Positions 1 to 30,900 of a stretch of 64,000 nt of DNA are shown in pieces. The DNA lies in the NCBI RefSeq assembly GCF_019375475.1, contig NZ_JAHXGQ010000002.1, positions 1 through 64,000 on the forward strand, given 5' to 3'. Position 1 is the first letter of the stretch. Each line of letters opens with the position of its first letter. Source of the stretch: Saccharothrix obliqua. GTDB lineage: Bacteria > Actinomycetota > Actinomycetes > Mycobacteriales > Pseudonocardiaceae. The notes below the pieces were generated by a model that searched no databases, was not told where the DNA came from, and was given only the letters and a program-made list of their open reading frames with translations. The position numbers and the translations under genes were made by a program.

Positions 1-3000
1 ATCACCCACCAACTCGTGCAACCACCACGCCCCGTCCACCTTCGGCCGCAACACCCGCGACACCTGATCAGGGGTGAGACCGGTGAGCGTGCCGTCGTCC
101 ACGACGCCCGCCGTGTGCACGACCGCGGTGGGCCGGTACGTGGCCACGACTTCCGCCAACGCGTCCCGGTCGGCGACGTCGCACGCGACCAGGTGGGCGG
201 TGGCGCCGAGGGCGGCCAGCTCGTCCCGCAGCTCCGCCGCGCCCGGCGCGTCCGGGCCGCGCCTGCCGAGCAGCACCAGCTCGCGGACGCCGTGCCGGGT
301 CGCGAGGTGCCGGGCCAGCACCGCGCCCAGCGCGCCGGTCGCACCGGTGACGAGCACCGGGCCGCTGCCCCACCGCACGGCCACGTCGGCGGACGGGGTG
401 CGGGCCAGGCGCGGCACCAGGACCTCGCCGCCACGCACGGCCACCTCCGGCTCGCCGAGCCGCAGCGCGGCGTCCAGCAGGTCCTCGCCGTTCTCGTCGA
501 CCGCGGCGAGCACGAACCGGCCGGGCTGCTCCGCCTGCGCGGTCCGCACCAGACCGCGCACGGCGGCGTGCGCCACGCCGTCCCGGATGACGATCGCCAC
601 CCGGCCTTCGGCTCCGCGCAACACCTCGAGCACGTGGTGCACGGCCTGTCGCGGGTCGAGGTCGGGCACCCGGTGCACGGCCGGCCCGTGTGCCGGGCCA
701 GGCCCCGTCCCGACCGGCACCGCGCGCCAGGTCAGGGCGTGCAGGCCGGAGCGCGGCCCGCCCCGGCCCAGCGGTCGCAGCGCCAGTTCCGCCACGGTCA
801 GCACCGGGTTGCCGGCGGCGTCCGCGACGACCACCGACACCGCCGAGCCGTGCCGGGTGAGCCTGGCGCGGGCCGCCGGCGCGGTGGAGTGCACGGTGAC
901 GCCGCTCCACGCGAACGGCAGCACCGGTTCCGCGGCGTCGTCCGCGACACCGGGCAGCAGCACGTGCAGCGCCGCGTCCAGGACCGCCGGGTGCACCAGG
1001 AAACCACCGCCCGCCAGCGGTTCCAGCTCGGCGAAGAGGTCGTCTCCCGCGCGGTGCAACGCCGTGAGCCGCCGGAAGGCCGGGCCGTAGTGGTAGCCGT
1101 GGTCGGCCAGCCGGTCGTACGCGCCGGTCAGGTCGACCTCCTCGGCGTGCGCGGGCCGCTCCAGCGGCGTGGCGGCGGGGTGTTCGGCGGTCAGCACCCC
1201 GGACGCGTGCAGCTCCCACGGCGCGGAGTCGTCGGGCCGCGCGTGCACCGCCACCGGGCGGCGGCCGTCCTCCTCCGGGCCCACGGTGACCTGGAGCAGC
1301 GCCGTGCCCAGCACCAGCGGCGCGGCGAGCGTCAGCTCCGCCAGGTGCGGGTGGCCGGTCCGCGCGCCCGCCGCCAGCGCGAGTTCGGCGAACGCCGTGC
1401 CGGGCAGCAGCACCTCGTCACGCACCCGGTGGTCGGCGAGCCAGTCGCCGCCGGACACGCGTCCGGTGAGCACGACCGTGTCGCCGCCCGCCAGCTCCAC
1501 CACCGCGCCGAGCAGGGGGTGCCGCGCGTCGCCCAGGCCGAGCGCGCCGGCGGACCGGGCGGCACGCGGGGCGTCCAGCCAGAACCGGCGGCCCTGGAAG
1601 CGGTAGGTCGGCAGCTCCACCGGTCGGGCGTCGCCGAAGTCCCACGTGACGGCCACGCCCCTGGTGTGCAGGACGCCCAGCGCGGTGAGCGCCGTCTCCA
1701 GCTCGGGTCGGCCGGAGCGCAGCACCGCGACGGCCGAGCCGGGTTCGGCGGTGAGGCACTGGCGGGCCAGGGCGGTCAGCACGCCGTCCGGGCCCAGTTC
1801 CACGAACTCGGTGGCGCCCAGCCGTTCCAGGGTGCGCACGCCGTCCAGGAACCGCACCGCCTCGCGGATGTGCCGGACCCAGTAGTCCGGCGACCGCAGC
1901 TGCTCCGCGGTGGCGGGTTCACCGGTCACGTCGGAGATCACCGTGATGGCGGGTTCCCGGAACGCCACACCCGCCAGGTCGGCGCGGAACCGGTCGAGCA
2001 CCTCGTCCATGTGCGGCGAGTGGAACGCGTGGCTCACCGGCAGCCGCCGGGTGCGCCGACCACGCGCGGACCACTCGGCGATCGCCCGCGCCACCGCCGG
2101 TTCGTCACCGGAGACGACGGTGGAGCGCGGCGCGTTGACGGCCGCGACGGCGAGCACGCCGCGCAGGCTCTCCCGCACCTCCTCCTCGGTCGCCTCGATG
2201 GCGGCCATCGCGCCGTCGTCACGCGCCGACTGCATGGCCCGACCGCGGGCGGCGACCAGCGTGCAGGCGTCGGCCAGGTCGAACACGCCCGCGACGTGCG
2301 CGGCGGCCACCTCGCCCACGGAGTGCCCGAGCAGGAGGTCCGGCCGCACGCCGTGGTGTTCCACGAACCGGTACAGCGCCACCTCGACGGCGAACAACGC
2401 GGCCTGCGTGAAGGCGGTCTGGTCCAGCAGCGCCGAGTCCGCGGTGTCCGCCTCGGCGAACAGGACCGCCTTGAGCGGGCGGTCCAGCACCGGGTCCAGG
2501 TGCTCGCACACCTCGTCCAGCGCGGCCCGGAACACCGGCGACCGCCGGTAGAGGTCGCGGCCCGTGCCGACGCGCTGGCTGCCCTGGCCGGTGAACAGGA
2601 ACGCGGTGCGGCCCCGACCGGAGCCGTCGCCGATCACCGGGTCCAGCAGCCCGTCCCGGCCCAGCACCACCGCGCGGCGCTCCAGGCGGGCGCGGCGGGC
2701 CAGCGTCCAGCCCACGTCGGCCGGGTCCGGGTCGTGCTCGCCCAGGTGGGCGTGCAGGGCGGCGGCCTGGGCACGCAGGGCGTCGTCGTCACGCGCGGAG
2801 AGCACCCACGGCACGACGTCCGGTGTCACGCGGTCGGCCTGCTCCGGTTCGGGGCCCTGCTCCAGGATCACGTGCGCGTTGGTGCCGCTGATGCCGAACG
2901 ACGAGACCGCGGCACGACGGGGCCGGTCGGCGGTCCACTCGCGGGGTTCGGTGAGCAGTTCCACCGCGCCCGACGACCAGTCCACGTGGCTGGTGGGTTC

Positions 3001-4125
3001 CTCGGCGTGCAGGGTGCGCGGCATCACGCCGTGCCGCATCGCCTGCACCACCTTGATGATCCCGCCCACACCCGCCGCCGCCTGCGCGTGCCCGATGTTC
3101 GACTTGAGCGAGCCCAGCCACAGCGGTCGCACGCGGTCCTGCCCGTAGGTGGCGAGCAGGGCCTGCGCCTCGATCGGGTCGCCGAGCCGGGTCCCCGTGC
3201 CGTGCGCCTCCACCAGGTCGACGTCCGCCGTGGTGAGACGGGCCGAGGCCAGCGCGGCGCGGATCACCCGTTCCTGCGACGGGCCGTTCGGCGCGGTGAG
3301 CCCGTTGGACGCGCCATCGGAGTTCACCGCCGAACCACGCAGCACCGCCAGCACCCGGTGGCCGCGCTCGCGCGCGTCGGACAGCCGTTCCACCAGCAGC
3401 AGGCCCACGCCCTCGGACCAACCCGTGCCGTCCGCGCCGTCGGCGAACGACTTGCAGCGCCCGTCGGCGGACAGGCCGCGCTGCCGCGAGAACTCCACGA
3501 ACGTGCCGGGACCCGCCATGACCGTGACCCCGCCCGCCAGCGCCAGGTCGCACTCGCCCTGCCGCAACGCGTTCGCGGCCAGGTGCAACGCCACCAACGA
3601 CGACGAGCACGCCGTGTCGACGGTGATCGCCGGGCCCTCCAGCCCGTAGGTGTAGGCCAGGCGACCGGAGACGACGCTGGAGGTGTTGCCCGCCAGCAGG
3701 AAGCCCTCCACCTCGTCCGGCGTGGCGGGCAGCCGCGAGGCGTAGTCGTCGTACATCACGCCGGTGAACACACCGGTCCGGCTGCCACGCAGCGCGGCGG
3801 GGTCGATGCCCGCGTCCTCGAACGTCTCCCACGCGGTTTCCAGCAGCAGCCGCTGCTGCGGGTCGGTGGCCAGCGCCTCGCGTGGCGACATGCCGAAGAA
3901 GTCCGCGTCGAACAGGTCCGCGTCGTGTAGGAACCCACCGGACTTCGCGTACGTCGTGCCCAGCCGCTCCGGGTCCGGGTCGTACAGGGCGTCGACGTCC
4001 CAGCCGCGGTTGGTCGGGAAACCGGTGATGGCGTCCCGACCTTCGGCCACCAGCCGCCACAGGTCCTCCGGCGACCGCACACCGCCCGGGTACCGGCACG
4101 CCATGCCGACGATCGCGATCGGCTC
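1..4125 (-). other. PKS extension module 2: KS-AT-DH-KR, cut by the window edge
   Basis: KS has DTACSSS with Cys2750. AT has GHSVGE near 2311-2331 and HAFHSPHMD near 2007-2039 (malonyl type). DH reads [10 protein letters not shown] at His3476, with Asp in place of the usual Gly of HxxxGxxxxP; the second catalytic region LDAALH is intact. KR has TGATGALG near 322-358 and VDD in HTAGVVDD near 94-120, which keeps the B-type Asp. The KR catalytic Tyr and the ACP lie beyond base 1. Confidence 0.9.
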
Positions 4126-7100
4126 GTCGGCACGCGTGGTGGCCCGCACCTCCGCCTTCCGGGCGCCCGCCGCCAGGAACGCGGCCAGCGCGACCGGCGT
4201 CGGGTGGTCGAACACCAGCGTGGTGGGCAGCTTCCGGCCGGTCGCGGCGATCAGCCGGTTGCGCAGGTCCACGCCCGCCAGCGAGTCGAAGCCCTGGTCG
4301 CGGAACGCCTTCTCCGGGTCGACGGCGGTGGCGTCGACGTGCCCGAGCGCCGCCGCGGCCAGCGACCGCACCAGGTCCAGCGCGGTGTCGCCGGTGAGCC
4401 CGGCGACGGGTTTGGCGGTCCGCCGCCGCACCAGGCCGCGCAACGGGGCGGGCACCACGTCACCGTCCACCTTGGACGGTTCCAGCGCGGCGGGCACGAG
4501 CAACGCCGCGTCACCCGCCAGCGCCCGGTCGAGCAGGGCCAGCCCGCGTGCCGGGTCCAGCGGCGCCACCCCGGCCCGCGCCCAGCGGGCCAGGTCGGTG
4601 GCCCCGAGCCCGTCGCCCATGCCCGCGCCCCACAGGCCCCACGCCAGCGAGGTCGCCGGGAGGCCACGCGCGTGGCGGTGGGCGGCCAACGCGTCCAGGT
4701 AGGCGTTGGCGGCGGCGTAGTTGGCCTGGCCCGCCGTGCCGAGGATGCCGGAGATCGAGGAGAACAACACGAACGCCCGCACGTCGCCGACCAGCTCGTG
4801 CAGGTGGCGTGCCGCGAGCGCCTTGGGCGCGAGCACCCGGTCCACCTGCTCGCCGGTCAACGCCGTCGTGGTGGCGTCGTCCAGCACGCCCGCGGCGTGG
4901 ATCACGGCGGACAGCCGCTCGCCCGCGAGGAGTTCCGCCAGGGCCGCGCGGTCGGCCACGTCGACGGCGACGACCCGCGCGCCGAGTTCGTCGGCCAGCT
5001 CGCGGGCGCCCGGCGCGTCCAGGCCGCGCCTGCCGACCAGCAGCAGGTCCCGCACGCCGTGGTGCTCGTGCAGGTGCCGCGCGACCAGCGCGCCGAGGCC
5101 GCCCGTGCCGCCGGTGATCAGCACCGTGCCGTCGAGCCGGGTGGGCTCCCCGAGGTCCACGCGGACCAGCCGGGGCACGACGAAACCGCCGTCCCGCACC
5201 GCGACCTGCGGTTCGCCGGTCGCGACCGCGGCGGGCACGGCCGACTCGTCGGCGGCGTCCACCACGACCACGCGGTCCGGGTGCTCCGACTGCACGGTCC
5301 GCACCAGGCCCCACACGGCGGCGTTCGCCAGGTCGTCCACCGGCTCACCGGGCCGGGCCGCGACCGCGTGGCGGGTGTGGAACACCAGCCGGTCACCGTC
5401 GTCGTGCTCCTCGGCCAGCCAGTCCTTGATCAGCCCGAGCGCGCGGCGCACGGCCACGCCCGGGTCGTCGGTGTCGGCGGGCGGCACCACGACCAGGTCG
5501 CCGAGCGGCTCGCCGCCGGGCACACCGGTCCACTCGACGGTGAACGTGGAACTGCCCGCGACGCCGTCCTTGGCGACCGACCGCAGCGTGATGCCGTCGA
5601 TCCGGCCCAGCGGCGCACCCGCGCCGTCCGCCACGTCCACCGCGAACGTGTCCGCGCCGGCCGGTGTGACGCGGACGCGCAACGCCGTGACGCCGGGCGC
5701 GGCCAGTTCCACGCCGCTCCACGCGAACGGCAGCCGGATGTGACCGGGTGCGGCGGGGACCATCACCAGCGGGTGCAGCACCGCGTCCAGCAACGCCGGG
5801 TGCACCACGAACTCCTCGGCGGGCGCGGGCACCGACACCTCGGCGTAGGTGGTGTCGCCGTCCCGCCACAGGCGGCGCAGGCCCCGGAACGGCTCGCCGT
5901 AGTCGTAGCCCAGCGCGGCGAGCCGGTCGTAGGCGTCGTCCAGCGGCTCCTCCGGCACGTCCGGCGGCCACGGGAACGCTTCGGCGGGTGTGGCTGCCGC
6001 GGCGAGCGTGCCGGACGCGTGCCGCTGCCACGCGTCCCGCCGCGAGTGCACGGTGAACCGGCCGTCCCGCACGGCGACCTGCACCTGCACGACGCCGTCC
6101 GCGGGCACCACCAGCGGCGCCTCCAGCGCCAGGTCCTCCACGCGCGGCAGGCCGACCCGCTCCCCCGCCGCGAGCGCCAGCTCCAGGAACGCCGTGCCGG
6201 GCACCAGGACCGCGCCGTTGACGACGTGCCCGGCCAGCCACGGCTGCGCGGTCAGCGACACCTCGCCGGACAGCACGACCTCGTCCCGGTCGGCCAGCTC
6301 CACCGCCGTGGTCACCAGGCCGGCGGTGCCGGTGGCCCGCGACGTGAGCCAGTACCGGTCCCGGCGGAACGGGTAGGTGGGCACGTCGGCCCGCTCCGCG
6401 CCCGGCACGAACGACGCCACGTCCAGCGGCGCGCCGTGGGCGTGCGCGTGGGCCATGCCCCGCACCGCCGTGGTCGCCTCCGGCTTGCCCGCCCGGCCGA
6501 GGGCGACCGCCACGGCGCCGGCGGCCTGCGCGAGCGGCGCGAGGACGGCGTCCGGGCCGATCTCCACGAACACCTTCGCGCCCGCCTGCTCCAAGCCGCG
6601 CACGGCGTCCAGGAACCGCACGGTGGCGCGGATCTGGCGCACCCAGTGCTCGGCGTCGGCTTCGAGGACTTCGCCGGTCACCGTGGAGATGACGGGGACG
6701 CGGGCGGCGTGGTGGGTGACGGTCGCCGCGACCGCGCGGAACTCGTCGAGCACGTCGTCCATGTGCGGCGAGTGGAACGCATGGCTCACCCGGAGCCGAC
6801 GCGTGCGGTCGAACCGGGCGGCGAACGCCGTGACGGCGTCCTCGTCACCCGCCAGCACCACCGAGTCGGGGCTGTTCACGGCCGCCAGCGCGACACCCGC
6901 CGGCAGGTCGCCGAGGTCCTCCTCGGCCGCCTGGACGGCGATCATCACGCCACCGGACCGCGCCCGGTGCATCAGCCGGCCGCGGGCGGCGACCAGCTTC
7001 GCCGCGTCGTCCAGGGTGAGCACGCCCGCCACGTGCGCGGCGACCAGCTCGCCGACGGAGTGTCCCGCCAGCAGGTCCGGCACCAGGCCGTGGTGCTCGG

Positions 7101-10100
7101 CGAGCCGGTGCAGGGCGGTCTCGTACGCGAACAACGCGGGCTGCGTGTAGCGGGTCTCGTGCAACCGGGTGTCGTCGCCGAACACCAGGTCCTCCAGCGG
7201 CACGTCCAGGTGGGGCGCGAACGCGGCCACCGCGGCGTCGAACGCCTCGGCGAACACGGGGTACGCCGCGTGCAGCTCGCGCCCCATGCCGGCGTGCTGC
7301 GCGCCCTGGCCGGTGAACAGGAACGCCGTGCGACCGCCGGGTGCGGCGCGACCGGTCAGCGGCGCGGCCAGGAAGTCGTCGGGTTCGACGCCGACGACCA
7401 CGGCCCGGTGGTCGAACCGGGTGCGCTCGGCGAGCGCGCGGGCGACCTCCGCGACGTCGGCGCGACCACGCACGCCCTCCCAGTGGGCGATCGCGGAGCC
7501 GGGGTCGTGGCCGCTGAACACCCACGGGACCGGCGTGGTCACCGGGGTCTCCGCCGGCTCGTGCGCGTCGCCCTGCTCCAGCACCAGGTGCGCGTTGGTG
7601 CCGCTGATGCCGAACGACGAGATGCCCGCCCGGCGCGGGCGGCCGTGCTCGGGCCACGCGCGGGCCTCGGTGAGGAGTTCCACCCGGCCCGCGGACCAGT
7701 CGACCCGCGGGGTGGGCTCGGCGACGTGCAGCGTGCGCGGCAGCACGCCGTGCCGCATCGCCTCCACCAGCTTGATCACACCGCCCACGCCCGCCGCCGC
7801 CTGCGCGTGGCCGATGTTCGACTTGAGCGAGCCCAGCCACAGCGGCCGGTCGCGGTCCCGGCCGTAGGCGGCGATGATCGCCTCGGCCTCGATCGGGTCG
7901 CCCAGCGACGTGCCGGTGCCGTGCGCCTCGACCGCGTCCACGTCCGCGGGCGCCAGGCCGGCGTCCGCGAGCGCCTGCCGGATGACCCGCTGCTGGGACC
8001 CGCCGTTCGGCGCGGTGAGCCCGTTGGACGCGCCGTCGGAGTTGATCGCGCTGCCCCGGATCGTCGCGAGCACGCGGTGGCCGTTGCGCCGCGCGTCGGA
8101 GAGCCGTTCCAGGACCAGGAGGCCGACGCCCTCCGCCCACACCGTGCCGTCCGCGTCGGCGGAGAACGACTTGCAGCGCGCGTCGGCAGCCAGGCCGTGC
8201 TGGCGGGAGAACTCCAGGAACATGCCCGGCGTGGCCATCACCGCGACACCGCCCGCGATGGCCGTGCTCGACTCGCCGCTGCGCAGCGACCGCACCGCCA
8301 GGTGCAGCGCGACCAGCGACGAGGAGCACGCCGTGTCGACGGTGAGCGCCGGACCGACCAGCCCGAGCTGGTAGGCGATGCGGCCGGACATGACGCTCGG
8401 CGTCGCACCCGTCAGCACGTGGCCCTCGGCCTGCTCGGACGCCTCGTGCATCCGCGGCCCGTAGTCACCCGCCGTGCCGCCGACGAACACGCCGGTCCGG
8501 CTGCCGCGCAACGACTCCGGGTCGATGCCCGCCCGTTCCACCGCCTCCCAGGCGGTGTGCAGCAGGAGGCGTTGCTGGGGGTCCATGGCGAGCGCTTCGC
8601 GGGGCGAGACGCCGAAGAAGGCCGGGTCGAACTCGGCCGCGCCGGCCAGGAAACCCCCCTCACGCACGTAGCTCGCGCCCGAGCGGTCCGGGTCGGGGTG
8701 GTACAGGTCGGCGGGCCAGCCCCGGTCCGCGGGGAACGGCCCGACGGCGTCCCGCTCGTCGACCACGAGCCGCCACAGGTCGTCCGGCGACGCCACGCCG
8801 CCCGGGAACCGGCACGCCATGCCCACGATCGCGATCGGCTCGTCCCCACCGGTGTCCACCACGGGCTCCTCGGTGGTGTCGGCGGCCTTGAGGAAGTCGA
8901 CGACCGCGTTCGGCGTGGGGTGCTCGAACAGCAGGCCGGTCGGCAGCACGCGCCCGGTGGCGGTGGCCAGGTTCTCCCGCAGCTCGACGCCCATCAGGGA
9001 GTCGAAGCCGAGGTCGCGGAACGGGCGACGCGGGTCCACCGCACCCGGTTCCGCGCCCAGCACGGCGGCCACGTGGGCGGTGACCAGCTCCGCGACGTCC
9101 CGGGCGGGCTGACCGGCCGCCGCGGCCGGCCGCTCGTCCAGCCAGTGCCGTTCGCGCTGGAACGCGTAGGTGGGCAGCTTCACGCGACGTCCCCGGAACG
9201 CCGTCCAGTCCACCGCGACGCCACGCGCGTGCACGGCGGCGAACGCGGTGACGGCGGTGGTCGGCTCGTCGTGGTCCTTGCGCATCAACGGGAACGCGCG
9301 GACACCGGCGTCGGCGGCGAGCGCGGAGAGCACCCCGTCCGGTCCGGCCTCGACCAGCGTGGTGACGTCGAGGCGACGCAGCGCGTCGTGGAAGCGCACG
9401 GGTTCGCGGACCTGCCGGACCCAGTATTCGGGGTCGGTCAGGTCGGCGTCGGGCGTGACCGAGGAGACCACGGGTACGCGTGGCGCGTGGAACTCCAGCC
9501 CGCGCACGACGGCGCGGAACTCGTCCAGCATCGGGTCCATCAGGGGCGAGTGGAAGGCATGGCTCACCGCGAGCCGCTTCGTCCGGTACCCGTTGGCGCG
9601 CAACGCTCCGGCGTACTCGACCACGGCTTCTTCCAACCCGGACAACACGACGGCACGCGGCCCGTTGACGGCGGCGAGCGCGACACCGGCGGGGAGTTCG
9701 AGTTCGGCCTCCGCCGCCTCGACCGCGACCATCGCGCCACCGGCGGGCAACGCCCGCATCAGCCTGCCGCGCGCGGCGACCAGGGTGCACGCGTCGGGCA
9801 GCGACAGGACGCCCGCGACGTGCGCGGCGGCGATCTCGCCGATCGAGTGGCCGACCAGCACCGAGGGCGTGAGGCCCCACGACTCGGCGAGCCGGTGCGC
9901 GGCCACCTCGACGGCGAACAGGGCGGGCTGGGTCCACCCGGTGTCGTCCAGCCCCCGGCCGGTGGCGACGACGTCCCGGAGTCGGGGGTCGAACCGGGCG
10001 ATCACCTCGTCGAACGCCCGCGCGTAGGCGGGGAACGCCTGGTGGAGGGCGAGACCCATGCCGGGGCGCTGCGCGCCTTGGCCGGTGAAGAGCACTCCCA

Positions 10101-12032: not shown

Positions 12033-12407
12033 ATGACGACGAACTTCGCGCTGCCCGAGGAAGCGACCGAGATGACCGCCCTGTACGTCCGCGCGATGAA
12101 CTCGGGCGACGTCGAGGCGGTGCTGTCGCTCTACACCGAGGACGCGGTGTCCGTGTGGGACCCGGAGAAGCCGATCAGCGGCGAGGAGCACGAGCGCGCG
12201 GTGCGCGAGTTCATGGCGCAGAAGCCCGTGATGCGTGCCGAGGTCAAGGAGTCCTACGTGACCGGCGACACGACGCTGCTGGTGGTCGACTGGTCGTTCG
12301 ACGTCCCCGGTTCGGAAACGCTCACCGGCACCGGCCTGGACGTGTTGCGGCGCGGCGAGGACGGCAAGTGGCGGTACGCGATCGACAACCCGTTCGGCGA
12401 CAACTGA
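12033..12407 (+). CDS. NTF2/SnoaL-like protein (first of two in the cluster)
   Basis: 124 residues, one NTF2-like alpha-beta barrel. Visible family features are the helical start with AMNSGDVEAVLSLYTEDAV and a C-terminal strand pattern with RRGEDGKWRYAIDNP. No signal peptide, so cytoplasmic. NTF2/SnoaL-like proteins in polyketide pathways act as cyclases, isomerases or hydrolases; in streptazone-type alkaloid pathways, as I recall, an NTF2-like protein acts as a cyclase. ATG at 12033 follows GGAGAAGAGG. It ends one base before the aminotransferase start, so the two are translationally coupled. A remote homologue lies at 16171-16587. The reaction cannot be read from the sequence. Confidence 0.85.
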   Translation: MTTNFALPEEATEMTALYVRAMNSGDVEAVLSLYTEDAVSVWDPEKPISGEEHERAVREFMAQKPVMRAEVKESYVTGDTTLLVVDWSFDVPGSETLTGTGLDVLRRGEDGKWRYAIDNPFGDN

Positions 12408-12408
12408 C

Positions 12409-17754: not shown

Positions 17755-17815
17755 GAGACTCCCTCTCTTCGTCCTTGCCACACCCTCGGTCCGCACCGGA
17801 GTCGGACCGTCGCCG

Positions 17816-17858: not shown

Positions 17859-17861
17859 ACC

Positions 17862-20602: not shown

Positions 20603-22146
20603 TGCTCCTCCTGGATCAGTTCTGCTCCGCGCTCGCCGATGGCCACGGCGTGCGCGTGCGTGTGACCGCGGGGGACGTGGGGGATCACCGAGGCGTCGAC
20701 CACCCGCAGTCCTTCGACGCCCCGGACTTTCAACCGCGGGTCGACCGCGGCGTCCGGCCCGCGGCCCACCCGGCAGGTGCCGACGGGGTGGAACACGGTC
20801 TCCGCGTGGGACCGGACGAACCCGCCCAGCCCCTCGTCGTCCGCCGGCCACGGTTCGAGCGGGCCGGACACCGCCGACCGCAGCGCCGGCGCGGCCACGA
20901 CCTCCTCCGCGAACCGCACACCGCGCACCAGCGCGGCGACGTCCGCCGGGTCGGCCAGGTAGCCGGGGTCGAGCCGCGGCGGCGTCGCCGGGTCGGCGTC
21001 CACCAGGTCGACCCGGCCCCGGCTGCGTGGTTGCAGCAGCACCACGCCGAGCGTGCGGCCCGGCAGCGGCGCGCCGTCCGCGCCGAACAACGCGGGCACC
21101 CAGATCAGCTCCAGGTCCGGCGGCCCGGCGCCGCCGTCGGCGCGGAAGAACGCCACCGCCTCCGCGAGGTTCGAGCTGAACGGCCCGGTGCGGTCCCGCT
21201 CGTACGCGTGCCGCGCGGCGGGACCGAGGTCGGTGAACCGGGTGGCGGGTTCGGCGGCACGCAGCGGCAGGTCCACCACGAGGTGGTCGTGCAGCCCCGC
21301 GCCGACCGCGGGCAGCGCGACGCGTGGTTCGACGCCCGCGGCGGCCAGCCGGTCCGGGTCGCCGATCCCGGACAGCATCAGCAGGTGCGGCGACCCGACC
21401 GCGCCCGCGCACAGCACGACCTCGCGGCGCGCGGTGAGCACGCCGTCGGCGAGCCGCACACCCGTGGCGCGGTTGCCGGACAGGACGACCCGGTGCACCC
21501 GCGTGCCGGTGATCACGGTCAGGTTCGGCCGGTCCAGCGCCGGGCGCAGGTAGCCGTCCGCCGCGCTCCACCGCCGCCCGTCGAGCTGGGTGAGCGGCGT
21601 CAGGGTCGCGCCCGCGTCCGGCGAGCCGCCCAGGCCGCCCGCCACCGGCTTGAGCCCGACCTCCGCGCACGCCTCGACGAACGCGTGGGAACTCGGGTCC
21701 GGGTCGCGTGGCGGCGAGATCCACAGCGGGCCCGCGTCGCCGTGCGTCCACCCGTCCGCCGGGTCGCCCGCCCAGCGCTCGACCCGCCGGAAGTACGGGC
21801 CGAACCGCTCGGACGTCCACAGCGGACCCGCGTCCCAGGTGTCGACGTCGCCGACCGGGCCGGGCACCCACATCTGGAAGTTGATCGTGGAGGAGCCGCC
21901 CAGCGCCCGGCCGCGCGGCCACGTCACCGACCGGCCCGCGAGCCCGTCCTGCGGCGTGGTCGCCAGGTCCCAGTCCAGTTCGCCGCCGAACAGCTCGGCG
22001 GTGGCGAGCGGTACCGCGACGTCCGGGTGGTCGTCCGCGCCGCCCGCCTCGACCAGGGCGACGCGCACCGACGGGTCCTCCGACAGGCGGGCGGCGACCA
22101 CGCAGCCCGCCGAGCCGGCGCCGACCACGACGTAGTCGAATTCCAT
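20599..22146 (-). CDS. GMC family FAD-dependent oxidoreductase
   Basis: 515 residues, glucose-methanol-choline family. ADP-binding motif VVVGAGSAGCVVAARLSE at the N-terminus, GMC signatures near GRALGGSSTINFQMW and AGAVGSPHLLMLSGIG, and the catalytic His in FHPVGTCRVG. The second active-site segment reads GHTHAHAVAIGERGA, where many family members have GNTNAPTIMIAEKAA, so the usual Asn is replaced by His. No signal peptide. Likely oxidises an alcohol or activated C-H of the polyketide. ATG overlaps the P450 stop (ATGA). Confidence 0.93.
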   Translation of the reverse strand: MEFDYVVVGAGSAGCVVAARLSEDPSVRVALVEAGGADDHPDVAVPLATAELFGGELDWDLATTPQDGLAGRSVTWPRGRALGGSSTINFQMWVPGPVGDVDTWDAGPLWTSERFGPYFRRVERWAGDPADGWTHGDAGPLWISPPRDPDPSSHAFVEACAEVGLKPVAGGLGGSPDAGATLTPLTQLDGRRWSAADGYLRPALDRPNLTVITGTRVHRVVLSGNRATGVRLADGVLTARREVVLCAGAVGSPHLLMLSGIGDPDRLAAAGVEPRVALPAVGAGLHDHLVVDLPLRAAEPATRFTDLGPAARHAYERDRTGPFSSNLAEAVAFFRADGGAGPPDLELIWVPALFGADGAPLPGRTLGVVLLQPRSRGRVDLVDADPATPPRLDPGYLADPADVAALVRGVRFAEEVVAAPALRSAVSGPLEPWPADDEGLGGFVRSHAETVFHPVGTCRVGRGPDAAVDPRLKVRGVEGLRVVDASVIPHVPRGHTHAHAVAIGERGAELIQEEQ

Positions 22147-23378: not shown

Positions 23379-23405
23379 AGCGGAACTCCTCAGCCGGGTG
23401 CGCCG

Positions 23406-24965
23406 TCAGCGGGCGAGCTTCGCCGAGTCCTGGTCGCGCACGACCTGCGCCACGTCGCGCAGCGCCGCCGCGAACGCGTCGATCTGCTCGTCGGTGATGA
23501 AGATCGACGGCTCGAACCGCAGCGTGTTCGGGTTGGACGCGGTGGAGAAGATGCGGATGCGCTTCTCGTGCAACAGGTATCCGGCCAGCGCGAAGGCGAA
23601 CACGTGGTGCTCGGACCACTCGCGGAACAGCTCGTCGGCCGAACCGCTCTGGTCGTGGAACTGCACGCCGAGCATCAGGCCCTGGCCACGCACCTCCAGC
23701 AGCACGTCCGGGAACTCCGCGACCACGGCCTCGATGGCGGACCTGGCCCGCGCGCCGCGCTCGGCCGCGCGGCGGTAGGCGGCGCCGTCGTCGGCCTCCA
23801 GCATCTCCAGCACCTTCAGCGCGACCCGGCTGGAGAAGCCGTCCTTGCCGAACGTGGAGGTGTGCAGCAGCTCGAACTCCTTGCGGTACCGGCTTTCCCG
23901 GACCAGCACGACACCGGTCTTCACGATGCCGCCGCCCAGGCTCTTGGCCAGCACGACGTAGTCGGGGCGCAGTCCGGAGTGCACCGAGGCGAGGAAGCTG
24001 CCCGACCGGCCCATGCCGCTCTGGATCTCGTCGGCGACCAGCGGCACGCCCACCGCGTCGCACACCTCGCGCAGCTTGCGCGCGGTGTCGGCGGTCAGCG
24101 GCTTGATGCCCGCCTCGCCCATGATCGGCTCGGCGAAGAACGCCGCGAACACCGGGAAGTCGCGCTCCACCAGCTCCACCGCGCCGGCCCGCACCTCGAC
24201 GTCGAGCAGCGCGACCCGCTCCTCCTCCACGATCTTCGCCGCGAGGTCGACCCGGTCGGCGGGCACGAACCGCGCCTGCGCGGCCAGCGCCTTGAACGGC
24301 GTGCGGAAGTCGGCGTTGTAGGTGAGCTGGATGCTGCTGACGAGCTTGCCGTGGAAACCGCCCTCCAGGGCGAGGAACAGCGGCTGCCGCGCGGCGGTCA
24401 CCGCGTTGCGGCGGCGCACCTCCTCGGCGAGCGCGTCGAACGTGTCGACGCCCAGCGCCGCCAGCGCGGCGGCGGACGGCGCGGCGCCGCCCGCGACCGC
24501 CTCGGCCGCCGTCGCGAGGTTCGCCTCGATGCCGTCGAGGAGTTCCGCGACCTTCATGCCGCGGTCCATCTCGGCGTGCTTGATCGCGATCTCCACGGCC
24601 TCCGCGCCGGAGTTGCCGAACAACCCGTAGAACTTCTCCTCGGTGCCCAGCTCCCGCCGCAGGATCCGGTTGAGGGCGGCGGCGACGTCGATGCCGAACG
24701 AGTAGCCGGAGAACTGCGCGTGCACCGGCACCTGCTCGTCCAGCAGCTGCTTGGCGTGCGCGACGATCTCCGGGTTGTGGTGCCCGAGGATCAGCGAGCC
24801 GAACCCGCTGGCGAGGTCGAGCACGCCGATCTCGCCGCCCGCGCCGTCGTCGTGGTAGAGCGTGTCGCCCTCGGCGCGGACGTACTTCACGGCCAGCCCG
24901 AACCCGTCCAGCAGCTCGATCAGGTGGGAGTCCGCGAATTCGGGCGCACCAGGAGAAAGACTCAT
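23406..24965 (-). CDS. Class III PLP-dependent aminotransferase (second of two)
   Basis: 519 residues. Fold-type I motifs: GNSGAEAVEIAIKHAEMDRG, DEIQSGMGRSG and Schiff-base Lys341 in VLAKSLGGG. It is a clear paralogue of the 12409 enzyme, with shared strings such as PVHAQFS, KALAAQARFV and LRFEPSI. The insertion between AEMDRG and GFHGKL is about 25 residues longer than in that paralogue. ATG 24965 is chosen for the GAGG 5 bases upstream; the frame is open further but with no family sequence. First gene of the operon with P450, GMC oxidoreductase and monooxygenase. Confidence 0.9.
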   Translation of the reverse strand: MSLSPGAPEFADSHLIELLDGFGLAVKYVRAEGDTLYHDDGAGGEIGVLDLASGFGSLILGHHNPEIVAHAKQLLDEQVPVHAQFSGYSFGIDVAAALNRILRRELGTEEKFYGLFGNSGAEAVEIAIKHAEMDRGMKVAELLDGIEANLATAAEAVAGGAAPSAAALAALGVDTFDALAEEVRRRNAVTAARQPLFLALEGGFHGKLVSSIQLTYNADFRTPFKALAAQARFVPADRVDLAAKIVEEERVALLDVEVRAGAVELVERDFPVFAAFFAEPIMGEAGIKPLTADTARKLREVCDAVGVPLVADEIQSGMGRSGSFLASVHSGLRPDYVVLAKSLGGGIVKTGVVLVRESRYRKEFELLHTSTFGKDGFSSRVALKVLEMLEADDGAAYRRAAERGARARSAIEAVVAEFPDVLLEVRGQGLMLGVQFHDQSGSADELFREWSEHHVFAFALAGYLLHEKRIRIFSTASNPNTLRFEPSIFITDEQIDAFAAALRDVAQVVRDQDSAKLAR

Positions 24966-25163
24966 GAGGTCCTCGACTTCCGTACGGCGGGAAATCGCGC
25001 TCCGGGGTTTCGGCGCGCTGGGTGCAGATATATCCCAGGGCACCCTCCGCCGTGGTCATCGGCGGTTCACGGGCACGCCGAAGAATGGCCGGTGAGCGAC
25101 CGATTACCGATCAGTGGAAATGCGCGGGAAAAGCCTCGTCCGGTTGCGGCGGGTAACTCGCGG
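24966..25163. promoter_or_regulatory. Promoter region of the second aminotransferase operon
   Basis: No gene. On the minus strand GATATATC at 25027-25034 is the only AT-rich block and a plausible -10 about 60 bases ahead of the ATG. No SARP-type repeats comparable to those at 17830 or 28409 were found, so this operon may be controlled differently. Confidence 0.4.
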
Positions 25164-28100
25164 TCACCGTTCGGTGAGCGCGTGGGCGCGTACCGGGTCG
25201 AGCGCGCGGCCCCGCGTGAAGTGCGCCTCGTACGCGTCGCCGAGCGCGGACCGCAGCACCGCCCCGATCCGCTCCACGTCGCCGCGCTCGGCGGGCGGCA
25301 GCGGCGCGCCGACCGCCTCCCGCGCGGCGGTCGCCGCGCCCAGCAGCCGCGCCGCCTCGGTCGACCGGCCCGCGATGGCCAGCGCGCCCGCCAACCCCTC
25401 CAGCGCGAGCGCCACGGACCGCGGGTCGCCGGTGGCCTTCGCCGCCGCGTAACCCTCCTGGTGCAGGGCGAGCGCGGTCTCGGCGTCACCGCGCTGCTCG
25501 GCGACGAAACCCAGCTCGGCCAGGATCAACGCCTCGCCCGCGTCGCCGTCGAGCTGGCGGCACCAGTCGAGCCAGCGCCGCAGGTGCGCCTCCGCCGCGT
25601 CGAGCCTGCCCTGCCGCCGCGCGCCGAGCCCCAAGCCGACCTCGGCGAACTGCTCGCCGAACGTGAAGCTCTGCTCCGCGGCCAACCGCATGGCGCGCTC
25701 GTGCAGCTCGCGGGCCTGGCCGTGGTCGCCGTCCAGCAACGCGATGCGGGCCAGCCCGGACAGCTTCGTGGACACCTCCGACCACAGGCCGAGCGTCTCG
25801 GCGATGCGCAACCCGTCGCGGTGCAACCGCACCGCGTGCTCGTAGTCGCCACGCACCTCGGCGAGCTGCGCGAGCGCGTCGGTCGCGAGGAGCCGGCCCC
25901 AGCCGTCGCCGACGTCCTGGAACAGGGCCGCGCTCTCCTCGCCGCACTGCCGCGTGGTGGCCAGGTCGCCACGCAGCACGGCCTGCGTGGCGAGCGCCGC
26001 CAGCGCCGCCGCCGTGCCCCACCGGTCGCCCAGCGCGCGGAACTCCGCCAGCGCCCGGTCGATGCGCTTCTCGCTGCTGTCCTGGTCGCCGAACCCGATC
26101 CGGGCGAAACCCAGGAACCAGCGCGCGGTGGCCCGCCCGACCGGTTCGGCGATCTCGTCGGCCAGCGCGTCGTAGTGCTCCAGCGGGTACCCCGCCTCGC
26201 CCGCGCGCAACTGGAAACCGGCCCGCCAGGCGAGGGCCTTCGCCCGCTCCGAGGGGTCCGCCTGGCCGGACACGTGCAGCGCCAGCGCGAACGAGCGGTT
26301 GGCCTCGCCGAGCCGCCCGCGCAGGAACCAGTACCAGGCCAGGCGGTTCACGATGCGCAACGCGAGGTCCGCGCGGCCCTGGCCCGCCGCCGTGTCCAGC
26401 GCGACCCGCAGGTTCGCCGCCTCCAGGTCCGTCAGCTCCAGCCAGCGCCGCTGGTCGGGACCACGCAGGTGGGACAACGCGCGGGCGGCGAACTCCGCGT
26501 GGTGCGCGGCGTGCCGGGCCCGCACCGCGTCCGCCTCGCCCGCCTCGCGCAACCGCTCCGCGCAGTACGCGGCCACCGACTCGGGCAGCCGGTACCGCCG
26601 CACGCCGCCCACGTCGGCGACACCCACCAGGCTGCGGTCCACCAGCCGCGCCACCAGGTCCAGCACGTCGGCGTGCGCCACGCCGCCACCCGCGCACACC
26701 TCCTCGGCCGCGTGCAGCGGGCACCCGCCGCTGAACACCGACAGCCGCCGCAACACCACCCGCTCGGGCTCGCCGAGCAGGTCCCAGCTCCAGTCGATCG
26801 CCGCGCGCAGCGTCTGCTGCCGGGCGGGCGCGCCGCGCTTGCCCTGGGTGAGCAGCGCGAACCGGTTCTCCAGGCGTGCGGCGACCTCGTGCACGCCCAG
26901 GGCGCGCACCCGGGTCGCGGCCAGCTCCAGCGCGAACGGGATGCCGTCCAGCCGGCGGCAGATCGAGCGCACCGCGTCGGCGGTCGAACCGTCCAGCGCG
27001 AAGTCCGGCGCGGCGGCGGTGGCGCGGGCGACGAACAGCTCCACCGCCGTGGACGGCCCGTCGTCGTCGGGCAGGGTCAGCGGCGGCACCGTCCACAGCC
27101 GCTCACCCGTGATGCCCAGCGGTTCCTGGCTGGTGGCCAGCACCCGCACGCCGGGCGCGGCCATCAGCAGCAGCTCCGCCACGTCCGCGACCCTGGCCAC
27201 CACGTGCTCGCAGTTGTCCAGCACCAGCAGCAGCTGCTTGGTGCGCAGCGCGTCCGCGAGCCGGGTCGCGAGCGACACCGGCTTCGCGCCGCTCACCTCG
27301 TCCCGCACGCCGAGCACGGTCGCCACCAGGTCCACCACGCCCGCCTCGGACTCCAGCGTCGCCAGCTCCGCGAGCCACACCCCGTCCGGGTGCTGGTCGG
27401 CGACCTCCGCCGCGGCGGCCAGCGCGAGCCGCGTCTTGCCGACGCCGCCGATGCCGTTCAACGTCACCAGCCTGCTCGCGTCCAGCAGCGCCCGCACCTG
27501 CCCGATCGCCGCGTCCCGCCCGATCAGCGGGGTCAGCGCGGCGGGCAGGTTGGTCAGCGGGCGGGCCGCCGTGGTGATCGGCGTCGGGGTCGGCGCGAGG
27601 TGCGGGTCGCGCTCCAAGATCGCCTGCCGCAACGCCACCAGCTCCGCGCTCGGCTCCAGCCCCAGCTGCTCGGCCAGCGCCACCCGCAGGCGGTCGAAAT
27701 CGGCCAGCGCCTCGCTCTGCCTGCCCGCGCCGTACAACGCACGCATGTGCGCGGCACGCAGCCGCTCCCGCAACGGGTGCCGGGCGAGCAGGTCGCCCAG
27801 CTCGCCCACCAGCAGCCGGTGCTCGCCCAGCCCGAGCATCACCTCGGCCCGGTCCTCCAGCGCGGTGAGCCGCTGCTCCTCCAGCCGCGCCACGACCGGG
27901 CGGGCGAACTCGGCGTCGGCGAAATCGGCCAGCGCCGGGCCGCGCCACAACGCCAGCGCGTCACCGAGCAGCGCCGCCCGCGCCCGCAGGTCCGCCGTGC
28001 CGTGGGACGCGGCGAGCAGCGCGGCGAACCGGCGCGCGTCCACGTCGTCGTCCCGCACGGCCAGCAGGTAACCCGGCGGGCGCGACACCACCAGCTCACC

Positions 28101-28343
28101 CGCGCCCGGTTCGGCGTCCTCCAGCGCCCGCCGCAGCTGCCACACCTTCGTGTGCAGCGCGCCGGTCGGGTTGCCCGGCGGCGAGTCGCCCCACAGGTCG
28201 TCCCCCAACCGGTCCGCCGAGACCGCCTCGCCCTCGTGCGCCAGCAGGTCCGCCAGCAGGGCGCGGGCCTTCGCGCCCGGCACCGGGACGACGCGGTCGT
28301 CCGCGGTCCAGACCGTGAGCGGACCCAGGATCCCGAAGCGCAC
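25164..28343 (-). CDS. AfsR-type regulator: SARP-NB-ARC-TPR
   Basis: 1059 residues from GTG 28343. Winged-helix DNA-binding domain first (VRFGILGPLTVW onward, to about 95), then a BTAD domain to about 245. The STAND ATPase has an intact Walker A GIGGVGKTRLALA and Walker B QLLLVLDNCEHV, with a TSQEPLGI sensor motif. Next come a winged-helix-like segment and a long TPR-rich C-terminus. This is the AfsR/RedD-like activator family with full signalling apparatus. Upstream in-frame sequence shows no similarity, and no ribosome-binding site precedes the GTG, so the message may be leaderless. Divergent from the imine reductase/MFS operon, sharing the region that carries a SARP box. Confidence 0.93.
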   Translation of the reverse strand: MRFGILGPLTVWTADDRVVPVPGAKARALLADLLAHEGEAVSADRLGDDLWGDSPPGNPTGALHTKVWQLRRALEDAEPGAGELVVSRPPGYLLAVRDDDVDARRFAALLAASHGTADLRARAALLGDALALWRGPALADFADAEFARPVVARLEEQRLTALEDRAEVMLGLGEHRLLVGELGDLLARHPLRERLRAAHMRALYGAGRQSEALADFDRLRVALAEQLGLEPSAELVALRQAILERDPHLAPTPTPITTAARPLTNLPAALTPLIGRDAAIGQVRALLDASRLVTLNGIGGVGKTRLALAAAAEVADQHPDGVWLAELATLESEAGVVDLVATVLGVRDEVSGAKPVSLATRLADALRTKQLLLVLDNCEHVVARVADVAELLLMAAPGVRVLATSQEPLGITGERLWTVPPLTLPDDDGPSTAVELFVARATAAAPDFALDGSTADAVRSICRRLDGIPFALELAATRVRALGVHEVAARLENRFALLTQGKRGAPARQQTLRAAIDWSWDLLGEPERVVLRRLSVFSGGCPLHAAEEVCAGGGVAHADVLDLVARLVDRSLVGVADVGGVRRYRLPESVAAYCAERLREAGEADAVRARHAAHHAEFAARALSHLRGPDQRRWLELTDLEAANLRVALDTAAGQGRADLALRIVNRLAWYWFLRGRLGEANRSFALALHVSGQADPSERAKALAWRAGFQLRAGEAGYPLEHYDALADEIAEPVGRATARWFLGFARIGFGDQDSSEKRIDRALAEFRALGDRWGTAAALAALATQAVLRGDLATTRQCGEESAALFQDVGDGWGRLLATDALAQLAEVRGDYEHAVRLHRDGLRIAETLGLWSEVSTKLSGLARIALLDGDHGQARELHERAMRLAAEQSFTFGEQFAEVGLGLGARRQGRLDAAEAHLRRWLDWCRQLDGDAGEALILAELGFVAEQRGDAETALALHQEGYAAAKATGDPRSVALALEGLAGALAIAGRSTEAARLLGAATAAREAVGAPLPPAERGDVERIGAVLRSALGDAYEAHFTRGRALDPVRAHALTER

Positions 28344-28408
28344 GACGCAACCATATCGCCTGGACAGGCACCCTGAGGGCGTTGGCGAGCCCTCCTCGGC
28401 GGTACACC

Positions 28409-28451: not shown

Positions 28452-28479
28452 GTGGTGCGCAGTGCAGAGGAGGATGCGG

Positions 28480-29364
28480 ATGACGGCGCACCACCGCGCC
28501 CCCGTGACGGTCATCGGGCTGGGGGCGATGGGTTCCGCGCTGACGCGGGCGCTCGTGGCCGCGGGACACCCCACGACGGTGTGGCACCGGCTGCCCGGCC
28601 CGGTCGACGAGCCGGTCGCGACGGGCGCCGTGCACGCCGCCACCCTGGTCGAGGCGGTCTCGGCGAGCCCGCTGGTCGTGGTGTGCGTGATGGACCACCG
28701 GGCGATGCGGGAGATCGTGAACTCGCTCGGCGACGCGCCCGCGGACCGGGTCGTCGTGAACCTCACCCCGGGTTCCGCCGAGGAGGCCCGGCAGACCGCG
28801 GAGTGGGTGGCCGCGCGTGGCGTCGCCTACCTGGACGGCGCGTTGCTCACCCCGCCCGCCGAGGTCGGCGGTGAGCAGGCGCTCGCCTTCTACGCCGGCC
28901 CCAAGCAGGTCTACCGGGAGCACGAGGCGACGTTGGCCGCGCTCGGCGGTTCCGCCACCTACCTCGGCGAGGACGTGGGGCTGCCCGCGTTGTACGAGGT
29001 GGCGTTGTGCGGCGTGCTGTGGAGCGCGTGGGCCGGGCTGCTGCACGCGCTGGCGCTGGTGTCGGCCGAACGCGTCGCCACCGCCGACTTCCTGCCGCAC
29101 GCGACCCGCTGGCTGGAGCAGGTGGTCGCGCCGTGCGTGCCCGGCCTGACCGCCGACGTCGAGCGGCGCGACTACCCGGGCACCACGCTCGGGCGGGAGG
29201 CCGTGGCGATCGAGCGGCTGGTGGCGGCGAGCCGCGCGCGCGGCGTGGACGAGGGCCTGCCCGGCTACTTGCTCGCGCGGACCGAGCAGGCGATCCGGCA
29301 CGGCCACGCGGGCGACGGGTTCGCGAGCCTCATCGAGGTGCTGCGGTCGCCGGCCGCCGAGTGA
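28480..29364 (+). CDS. Imine reductase-like NAD(P)-dependent oxidoreductase
   Basis: 294 residues. Rossmann start VTVIGLGAMGSALTRALVAAGHPTT is split here only by length: motif GLGAMG, then HR for NADPH. NLTPGSAEEA and VAYLDGALLTPP follow, the patterns of the imine reductase branch of the beta-hydroxyacid dehydrogenase superfamily. A helical C-terminal dimerisation domain follows. Such enzymes reduce cyclic imines to amines, which fits a cluster with transaminases. ATG 28480 is taken over 28474 because AGAGGAGG lies 6 bases before it. A second family member is at 46072. Substrate is inferred only. Confidence 0.88.
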   Translation: MTAHHRAPVTVIGLGAMGSALTRALVAAGHPTTVWHRLPGPVDEPVATGAVHAATLVEAVSASPLVVVCVMDHRAMREIVNSLGDAPADRVVVNLTPGSAEEARQTAEWVAARGVAYLDGALLTPPAEVGGEQALAFYAGPKQVYREHEATLAALGGSATYLGEDVGLPALYEVALCGVLWSAWAGLLHALALVSAERVATADFLPHATRWLEQVVAPCVPGLTADVERRDYPGTTLGREAVAIERLVAASRARGVDEGLPGYLLARTEQAIRHGHAGDGFASLIEVLRSPAAE

Positions 29365-29391
29365 ACTTCGCAACTGGGGAAAGGGAAGAGC

Positions 29392-30900
29392 ATGGAGCGC
29401 ACAGACCGCGCGGGCGCCCGGGAGTGGCTCGGGCTGGCCGTCCTCGCGCTGCCGACGCTGCTGCTGTCGGTGGACGCGACCGTCCTGTACCTGGCGCTGC
29501 CGCACCTGGGCGCCGACCTGCGCCCCACCGGCGCCGAGACGCTGTGGATCATCGACATCTACGGCTTCATGATCGCGGGCTTCCTGATCACCATGGGCAC
29601 GCTCGGTGACCGGATCGGTCGCCGGCGGCTGCTCGTGGTGGGCGCGCTCGCGTTCGGCGCGGCGTCCGTGGCCGCCGCCTACGCGAGCGACCCGGCGGTG
29701 TTGATCGCGGCGCGGGCGCTGCTCGGCGTGGCGGGCGCGACGCTGATGCCGTCCACGCTCGCGCTGATCACCAACATGTTCCACGACGCCACGCAGCGCG
29801 GCGTGGCGATCGGCGTGTGGGCGGCGTGCTTCTCGGCCGGGGTGGCGGCGGGTCCGCTGATCGGCGGCGCGTTGCTGGAGCTGTTCTGGTGGGGTTCGGT
29901 GTTCCTGCTCGCCGTGCCGGTGATGGTGGTGCTGCTGGTCGCCGCGCCGCTGCTGCTGCCCGAGTCGCGCGACCCCGCGCCGGGCAGGCTCGACCTGGCG
30001 AGCGTCGCCCTGTCGCTGGCGGCGATCCTGCCGGTGATCTACGGCCTGAAGGCGGTCGCGGCCGACGGCGTCGGTCTCGTCGCCGCGGCGGCGATCGCGG
30101 TCGGGCTCGGGTTCGGCGCGTGGTTCGTGCGGCGGCAGCGGTCGCTGCCCGACCCGCTGCTGGACGTCCGGCTGTTCACGCGGCCCGCGTTCGCCGGCGC
30201 GCTGCTGGCGCTGCTGGTCGGCCTCGCGGTGGTGGGCGCGGTGTATCTGTTCGTCACCCAGTACCTCCAAATGGTCGCGGGCCTCTCACCGCTGGCGGCG
30301 GGGTTGTGGCTGCTGCCCTCGGCGGTGGCGATGATCGTCTCGTCGATGGTCGCGCCCGTGGTGGCCCGCCGGGTCGCGCCGGGTGTGCTGGTGGCCGTCG
30401 CGCTCGGCATCTCGGCCGTCGGGTACCTGCTGCTCGCGTTCGTGTCGGGGCCCGACGGGTTGGCGCTGGTGGTGACCGGTCTGGTGGTGGTGTACGCCGG
30501 TATCGGGCCGATGATGGCGCTGGGCACCGACCTGGTGGTGGGCGCCGCGCCCGCGGAGCGCGCGGGTTCGGCGGCGGCCATGTCGGAGACCAGCATGGAG
30601 TTCGGGTTGGCGCTGGGGGTGGCGGTGCTGGGCAGCGTGGGCACGGCCGTGTACCGGTCGGAATTGCCGCCGGGCACGCCGGCGGACGCCGTGGAATCGC
30701 TCGCCGGCGCGTTGGCCGTCGGCGGCGCGGATGTGGTCGCCGCGGCGCGGTCGGCGTTCACCAGCGGGTTGACCGCGGTGGGGGTGGTGAGCGCCGTCGC
30801 CACGGTGCTGGTCGCTTTCGCGACGTTGTTCCTGGTGCGCGTTCCCGCAGCGGGCACCGAAGAAATCACGCCGGCGGAAGGGCGGACATCTCGGGCATAA
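29392..30900 (+). CDS. MFS multidrug exporter, DHA2 (14-helix) type
   Basis: 502 residues with many hydrophobic segments. Motif A-like GTLGDRIGRRRLL between TM2 and TM3, the antiporter motif C region FSAGVAAGPLIGG, and an N-terminal VDATVLYLALPHLGADL, as in SmvA/QacA-type proton-driven exporters. It begins 27 bp after the imine reductase gene with GGGGAAAGGGAAGAG before the ATG, so it is in the same SARP-box-controlled operon. Probable role: export of, and self-resistance to, the cluster product. Confidence 0.92.
   Translation: MERTDRAGAREWLGLAVLALPTLLLSVDATVLYLALPHLGADLRPTGAETLWIIDIYGFMIAGFLITMGTLGDRIGRRRLLVVGALAFGAASVAAAYASDPAVLIAARALLGVAGATLMPSTLALITNMFHDATQRGVAIGVWAACFSAGVAAGPLIGGALLELFWWGSVFLLAVPVMVVLLVAAPLLLPESRDPAPGRLDLASVALSLAAILPVIYGLKAVAADGVGLVAAAAIAVGLGFGAWFVRRQRSLPDPLLDVRLFTRPAFAGALLALLVGLAVVGAVYLFVTQYLQMVAGLSPLAAGLWLLPSAVAMIVSSMVAPVVARRVAPGVLVAVALGISAVGYLLLAFVSGPDGLALVVTGLVVVYAGIGPMMALGTDLVVGAAPAERAGSAAAMSETSMEFGLALGVAVLGSVGTAVYRSELPPGTPADAVESLAGALAVGGADVVAAARSAFTSGLTAVGVVSAVATVLVAFATLFLVRVPAAGTEEITPAEGRTSRA

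Follow-up and report, generated by a model that had tools for sequence, protein, structure and literature searches.

A conserved transaminase, cytochrome P450 and GMC oxidase cassette within a probable argimycin/streptazone-type polyketide-alkaloid cluster of Saccharothrix obliqua

The first 64 kb of contig C12 of the 8.04-Mb Saccharothrix obliqua genome (G000), hereafter the window, carries a polyketide synthase (PKS) gene cluster that encodes two class III transaminases, AT1 and AT2. Since the window starts at the contig edge, the PKS gene at its left end is cut there and the cluster runs off the contig on that side, while the BTAD-containing SARP1 regulator (31149-33260, + strand), which is present in the clusters of related genomes, belongs to the cluster and is its probable right border. 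Within these limits, three consecutive minus-strand genes encode AT1 (23406-25043; PF00202), a cytochrome P450 (22146-23378; PF00067; nearest solved structure CYP154A1, 393 bits) and a GMC alcohol oxidase (20599-22146; PF00732/PF05199). The three genes are tightly packed: 27 bp separate AT1 from the P450 gene, the P450 stop and GMC start codons share a base (TGATG), and the GMC gene overlaps the next gene, which encodes an acyl-CoA-dehydrogenase-like (ACAD-like) enzyme, at ATGA. As described below, AT1, the P450 and the GMC oxidase form a conserved, separable cassette that is a new part of this type of cluster.

To describe the remaining genes we use two comparators, the plasmid clusters of Streptomyces sp. 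RerS4 and Streptomyces sp. NBC_00250, as stand-ins for the coelimycin (cpk) and argimycin P (arp) clusters, respectively. The truncated gene, PKS A (1-11856, -), encodes, by Pfam and motif mapping, a KSQ loading KS-AT-ACP, a KS-AT-DH-KR-ACP module 1 and the beginning of a KS-AT-DH-KR module 2. It is followed on the plus strand by SnoaLb, an NTF2-like putative cyclase (12033-12407; PF12680; 49% identical to an arp-type NTF2 protein), and AT2 (12409-13866; PF00202), the candidate for the core CpkG/ArpN role. The next genes, all on the minus strand, encode a CpkK-like acyl-CoA carboxyltransferase beta subunit (14020-15588, with an ATG at 15588; PF01039; 61% over 531 residues to the cpk-type carboxylase), an ArpK-like flavin reductase (15585-16109; PF01613, 144.5 bits; 60% to arp-type), a second NTF2-like putative cyclase, SnoaLa (16171-16587; PF12680 at 28.3 bits against a cut-off of 27; 48% to arp-type), an SDR oxidoreductase distinct from the imine reductase (17005-17796; PF13561), a flavin amine oxidase (17862-19277; PF01593) with a Tat-like signal (RRTLLKAL, recognised by eye) and the ACAD-like enzyme, which resembles ArpDHI (19430-20602, with an ATG at 20602; PF08028; 49-53% to two arp-type ACADs). 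Beyond the cassette lie genes for SARP2, a SARP-NB-ARC-TPR regulator (25164-28343, -), an ArpDHII-like imine-reductase-like enzyme (28480-29364, +; PF21761/PF03446; 72% to that of the G013 cluster and 39% to arp-type) and a CpkF-like MFS exporter (29392-30900, +; PF07690; 50% to the cpk-type MFS versus 28% to the MFS of the arp-type plasmid). An earlier note on this DNA had listed a KSQ-primed, all-malonyl PKS, two class III aminotransferases, two NTF2-like proteins, an imine-reductase-like enzyme, a GMC oxidoreductase and an exported amine oxidase, all of which we recovered by Pfam or motif assignment; the ACAD-like enzyme, flavin reductase, carboxyltransferase and SDR are additional to that inventory.

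PKS A is 80-81% identical to PKS A of three relatives (G018, G013 and G019), whose uninterrupted sets of subunits A, B and C comprise approximately 4.2, 3.0 and 2.0 thousand residues and in each case end in a thioester reductase (TR) domain. In the source genome, contig C7 opens with the 813 C-terminal residues of a PKS subunit that is 70-71% identical to PKS B of these relatives, and the subunit encoded next, PKS C, is 78% identical to theirs and carries a C-terminal TR domain (PF07993, 224.5 bits). From this homology and the orientation of the genes, we infer that the PKS of the window extends onto contig C7 and has a C-terminal thioester reductase, the ending that the earlier note had proposed looking for as part of its polyketide-alkaloid logic; no terminal thioesterase was seen. 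A 5.9-kb PKS contig, C18 (L010), was rejected as the missing link, being only ~47-53% identical to the PKSs of the relatives and carrying DH, ER-type and KR domains. The source genome also has two more strong PF07993 reductase domains in long open frames, at C23:568636-569349 (200 bits) and C33:692187-692888 (184.5 bits).

The loading KS carries the KSQ motif DTAQSSS, and every acyltransferase domain scored, five of the source genome and six of G018, carries the malonyl-type motifs GHSxG and HAFH. Motifs of modules 1, 2, 4 and 5 were read from the source genome, and module 3, the start of subunit B and the end of the module 2 KR were taken from relatives. The DH and KR motifs of module 1 are intact. 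In module 2, the DH keeps its His and Asp/His motifs with one glycine altered, and the KR, which is cut in the window, has its catalytic motif in G018, where the cofactor-motif pattern found no match, likewise in module 2 of both comparators. In module 3, for which the G018 sequence was used, the DH motifs and the catalytic motif of the KR are retained. Module 4 lacks the His segment of its DH and shows no recognisable KR motifs (KR 28.6 bits), and module 5 combines an intact KR with a DH whose central segment is missing. The predicted chain is a C12 3-hydroxy-5-oxo-6,8,10-triene aldehyde. As read from these motifs, the hexamodular all-malonyl programming, with its KSQ, module 4 keto and module 5 hydroxyl, matches that of the published argimycin PKS, for which the excerpts of PMC5300972 and PMC5820336 used here describe the same subunit layout, a KR4 that probably malfunctions, DH4 and DH5 domains that are inactive (ArpP), and the formation of the piperideine nigrifactin by the PKS and one transaminase.

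The likeness to argimycin P (arp, S. argillaceus) and streptazone E (stz) extends to the tailoring genes. As published (PMC5300972, PMC5820336), and in common with the cluster of the window, these systems comprise a three-subunit hexamodular all-malonyl PKS with KSQ and TR, an impaired KR4 with inactive DH4 and DH5, one core class III transaminase, two NTF2-like cyclases, an ACAD-like oxidase, an imine reductase, a flavin reductase, an amine-oxidase-like flavoenzyme and a SARP. The comparison with arp and stz is by published description, with sequences compared through NBC_00250; of the at least 80 loci matched in a scan of named genomes, mostly unrelated transaminases, 4 were used. The NBC_00250 cluster (L218, L221; NZ_CP108089.1, a linear plasmid) has arp-type tailoring genes (imine reductase, ACAD, flavin reductase, two NTF2 proteins and transaminase) and four extension modules, one fewer than arp, such that a C10 chain is expected. 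It is 48-60% identical to the window over PKS A, transaminase, NTF2 pair, ACAD, flavin reductase and TR. The gene order of the RerS4 cluster is, by our own reading, cpk-type. Identities to the arp-type and cpk-type comparators are 57% and 55% for PKS A, 60% and 59% for the TR, and 55% and 53% for AT2, which, together with the values given above for the individual tailoring genes, indicate an arp-like core with some cpk-like parts: the exporter and carboxylase are coelimycin-like, and AT2, the NTF2 pair, imine reductase, ACAD-like enzyme, flavin reductase and amine oxidase make up an argimycin-like set.

The cluster also differs from the known systems. Relative to arp and stz, the window has the AT1-P450-GMC cassette, the CpkK-like carboxyltransferase and the CpkF-like exporter in addition, and an arp-type type II thioesterase (ArpT) found no match at E ≤ 1e-3 in the window or in positions 1-20000 of contig C7, a search that leaves out the ~7-kb PKS gap and the remaining genome. 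With coelimycin (PMC11632069; compared via RerS4), the window shares the logic of PKS, TR and transaminase, the MFS, the carboxyltransferase and a SARP. In place of the FAD enzymes at the CpkD, CpkH and ScF positions of RerS4, which had no match in the window at E ≤ 1e-8, it has the NTF2 pair, imine reductase and flavin reductase, plus the second transaminase with its P450 and GMC oxidase. We consider it well supported that the core of the cluster is of a known kind, an argimycin/streptazone-type polyketide-alkaloid cluster, and the product of the cluster is very probably a polyketide with a nitrogen ring, akin to argimycin and streptazone. The polyketide-alkaloid character put forward in the earlier note thus agrees with the comparison, in which the cluster falls among those of the coelimycin/argimycin/streptazone type.

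Most of the gene set, at ~40-89% identity gene by gene, was found in seven other two-transaminase clusters whose AT2 falls in the same group (G018, G013, G019, G010, G022, G012 and G040), and this recurrence takes the gene set beyond chance. The G040 cluster (L225-L226, G040:C31) is from another genus, and its contig begins at AT2, which places the PKS side outside the data. The SDR had no match within the clusters of G013, G019, G010, G022 and G012 (five of the seven), nor the carboxyltransferase in that of G012. Across the 12 AT2-group clusters, the flavin reductase is present in all, SnoaLb adjoins AT2 in 11 (G040 being cut there by the contig start), and AT2 adjoins SnoaLb and PKS A in all 11 that cover that side.

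The cassette, in contrast to this core, is separable in relatives. AT1 directly adjoins a P450 gene, and a GMC gene is present in the cluster, in all nine two-transaminase clusters examined, namely those of the window, the seven relatives above and G004, and the P450s of the eight relatives are 67-84% identical to that of the window. G004 is the divergent member, with a PKS end beyond the stretch compared, and the AT2 group is common to the other eight. Eight of the 12 AT2-group clusters have AT1, P450 and GMC oxidase, two (G015 and G023) have the P450 and GMC oxidase only, and in the remaining two (G017 and G020) none of the three was found within the 80 kb compared. A whole-genome search at E ≤ 1e-100 returned only AT2 in G015, G020 and G023; in G017 it returned AT2 plus a single enzyme from a different group. 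The additions that the earlier note had found unfamiliar in combination divide: the second transaminase and the GMC oxidase stand, as parts of a trio with the P450 that is separable in relatives, and the amine oxidase is probably ArpO-like (see below). Neither a two-transaminase member nor such a cassette was recognised in titles and abstract starts of the open-access literature, among the matches listed.

One relative appears to be a natural cassette-minus strain. The 15-kb stretch from SARP2 to the carboxyltransferase is collinear between G017 and G018, with identities of 84%, 82% (a short piece) and 87%, and within it ~4.3 kb are present only in G018, beginning near the start of AT1 and ending some five codons short of the GMC stop. 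The gap spares the start of the ACAD gene, and the AT1 leader is retained in G017. The G017 genome contains no GMC homologue at E ≤ 1e-60, and its P450s, genome-wide, reach only 57-58% identity. In the transaminase tree, the G017 AT2 pairs with that of G018 (support 92/86) in a six-row group (100/100) whose other members carry the cassette; given this nesting among cassette carriers, loss from G017 is the simpler reading, as opposed to insertion in the others.

Taken as a whole, the explanation that we favour is an argimycin/streptazone-type cluster with an extra oxidative-amination cassette. In the proposed pathway, the KSQ-primed hexamodular malonyl PKS would build the C12 3-hydroxy-5-oxo-6,8,10-triene chain, and its TR domain would release it as an aldehyde. 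By analogy with argimycin, AT2 would aminate C1 and the amine would close on the C5 ketone to give a piperideine, after which the imine reductase, ACAD-like oxidase, flavin reductase, NTF2 pair and exported amine oxidase would reduce, epoxidise, close a five-membered ring and re-oxidise the ring amine; roles for the imine reductase, ACAD, NTF2 pair, ArpK and ArpO are taken from published arp mutants (PMC5820336). The P450 would hydroxylate the terminal methyl of the triene (carbon C12), the GMC oxidase would turn the carbon-C12 alcohol into a polyenal, and AT1 would transaminate this to a second amine. That the P450, GMC oxidase and AT1 add a second amine while AT2 supplies the ring nitrogen seems probable to us. 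Its placement at carbon C12 is more tentative, and so is the possible product, an alpha,omega-dinitrogen C12 polyketide alkaloid with one nitrogen introduced at the aldehyde that the TR releases and another at the far end of the chain.

The choice of carbon C12 turns on the GMC oxidase, whose nearest solved relative by sequence is ShAAO of Streptomyces hiroshimensis (8RPG; 621.8 bits over almost the full length, with the next GMC structure at 289). In the part of PMC11522167 that describes its substrates, the alcohol on which ShAAO showed its highest activity, out of 15, was trans,trans-2,4-hexadien-1-ol. Since ShAAO prefers dienyl primary alcohols, and only carbon C12 of the predicted chain can give a conjugated primary alcohol, the P450, GMC oxidase and AT1 would be expected to act at this carbon. 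We regard it as unlikely that AT1 instead installs the second amine at another oxidised carbon, such as a ring or internal ketone: homology to CYP154A1 does not fix the regiochemistry of the P450 and module 4 should leave a ketone, but the substrate preference of ShAAO points to carbon C12, and the C5 ketone is expected to be consumed by ring closure.

A slightly less likely alternative is that AT1 and AT2 are redundant on the TR-released C1 aldehyde, with the P450 and GMC oxidase merely oxidising a product that holds one nitrogen. Both are class III enzymes of similar identity (53-55%) to the cpk- and arp-type transaminases, and G015 and G023 keep the P450 and GMC oxidase without AT1. In an unrooted tree of 50 transaminase rows, however, 12 AT2-group rows lie on one side of a branch (support 100/99) and the nine AT1 rows of the two-transaminase clusters lie, with those of G006, G014 and G087, in a separate 12-row group (100/98); these groups, separate at 100% bootstrap, also rule out AT1 as a recent copy of AT2. 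The close linkage of AT1, P450 and GMC oxidase, and their joint absence from G017, likewise argue against redundancy, as does the presence of AT1-group enzymes in clusters of other kinds. In G006, an AT1-type transaminase lies ~8 kb from a thioesterase-ended PKS, with P450s and an O-methyltransferase between them, and in G087 (L227-L228, C117 30001-70000) an AT1-group transaminase is near a one-module non-ribosomal peptide synthetase (NRPS), a PKS-NRPS hybrid and an ACAD-like protein (8 proteins scanned), an arrangement resembling the caerulomycin and collismycin clusters (caerulomycin assembly line as outlined in PMC8149447). AT1-type enzymes thus occur where no TR aldehyde is expected. The full G006 cluster (L107, L108; C1 6245001-6285000) comprises the thioesterase-ended PKS, three P450 genes, the O-methyltransferase, a DUF2867 protein and the AT1-type transaminase, and the order of PKS, P450 and AT1 in G014 is similar.

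Among solved structures, AT1 is by far closest to CrmG (5DDS), the caerulomycin omega-transaminase, at 490 bits with the next at 137; CrmG differs in that it works in an NRPS/PKS bipyridine pathway. According to the portion of PMC7438487 used here, CrmG converts ~90% of its aldehyde to the amine with L-Glu as donor, and its F55 contacts the aldehyde substrate. The F55 position, mapped by eye, is Phe in all 12 AT1-group rows. In 11 AT2-group rows (the twelfth, a fragment, lacks this position) and in the cpk- and arp-type enzymes it is Tyr; as a marker, this is no more than suggestive.

Quite improbable, finally, is that AT1 runs backwards or recycles, deaminating a shunt product or repairing an over-oxidised aldehyde: transaminases are reversible and a substrate-recycling flavoenzyme is described for the caerulomycin pathway, but CrmG converted most of its aldehyde in the aminating direction and AT1 is linked to enzymes that could generate its own.

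This reversibility is one of several points that weigh against a second amination at carbon C12 by the cassette. The nine clusters are close kin, so that nine of nine are not nine independent events, and none of the three AT1-group members outside the two-transaminase clusters has a directly adjoining P450 (in G006 and G014 the P450s are two genes or more away, and in G087 there is no match to the P450 of the window). AT1 is about as close as AT2 to the comparators (55% arp-type, 54% cpk-type), CrmG is also the nearest solved relative of AT2 (452 bits) and is not among the rows of the tree, which does not settle where the AT1 group attaches, and the Phe marker is not unique, as the 24 other rows have 21 Tyr, 2 Phe (G011b and Nocardia) and 1 Trp. 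Judged from the relatives, ~7 kb of PKS (the end of A and most of B) are absent between contigs C12 and C7. G017 also has no MFS exporter match in the stretch compared, so the cassette is not its sole difference from G018. The choice of carbon C12 is based on analogy with a single homologue, ShAAO, which also accepts some secondary alcohols at a low rate (PMC11522167), and the P450 could oxidise elsewhere.

If the far-end amination proposed here is correct, it would extend the chemistry of this family, as the argimycin and coelimycin pathways, in the published descriptions cited above, have one transamination each, and the cassette would constitute a three-enzyme route from methyl to amine. 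Strains like G017 would then be natural cassette-minus producers of the one-nitrogen parent, and the existence of close relatives with and without the cassette makes the idea directly testable through metabolites.

For the putatively exported amine oxidase, the top-scoring solved structures are entries that bear the name amine oxidase (224 bits), some of which we take to be nicotine oxidases; MAO-N and 6-hydroxynicotine oxidase rank below them. By eye, its Tat-like twin-arginine motif is present in seven of eight relatives inspected as well, the exception being G004. In the excerpt of PMC5820336 used here, ArpO is similar to oxidases 'including amino oxidases', and StzK, 80% identical to ArpO, is assigned epoxidation. 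By analogy, the amine oxidase is probably not an oddity within an argimycin-type set, and a plausible role would be that of an ArpO-like enzyme re-oxidising the ring amine outside the cell.

Beyond SARP1, genes for a PadR regulator and an FAD monooxygenase (33849-35638) had no match at E ≤ 1e-10 in the stretches from 12 relatives. A second imine-reductase/reductive-aminase-like gene (PF21761; 46033-46905, +), directly after a sigma-70-family gene (44638-45639), lies outside the cluster and was rejected as its imine reductase; it is 39% identical to the imine reductase of the cluster, versus 72% between the latter and the G013 enzyme. Two Rfam ASpks (RF01782) matches above threshold lie antisense to the PKS, about one module apart (3103-3171 and 7822-7890, +), and probably reflect conserved PKS coding sequence and not a small RNA. 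Further right, a 434-residue TIR_2-domain protein (41236-42540, +) is flanked by a MarR regulator and a DUF6292 protein, with an MMPL transporter nearby.

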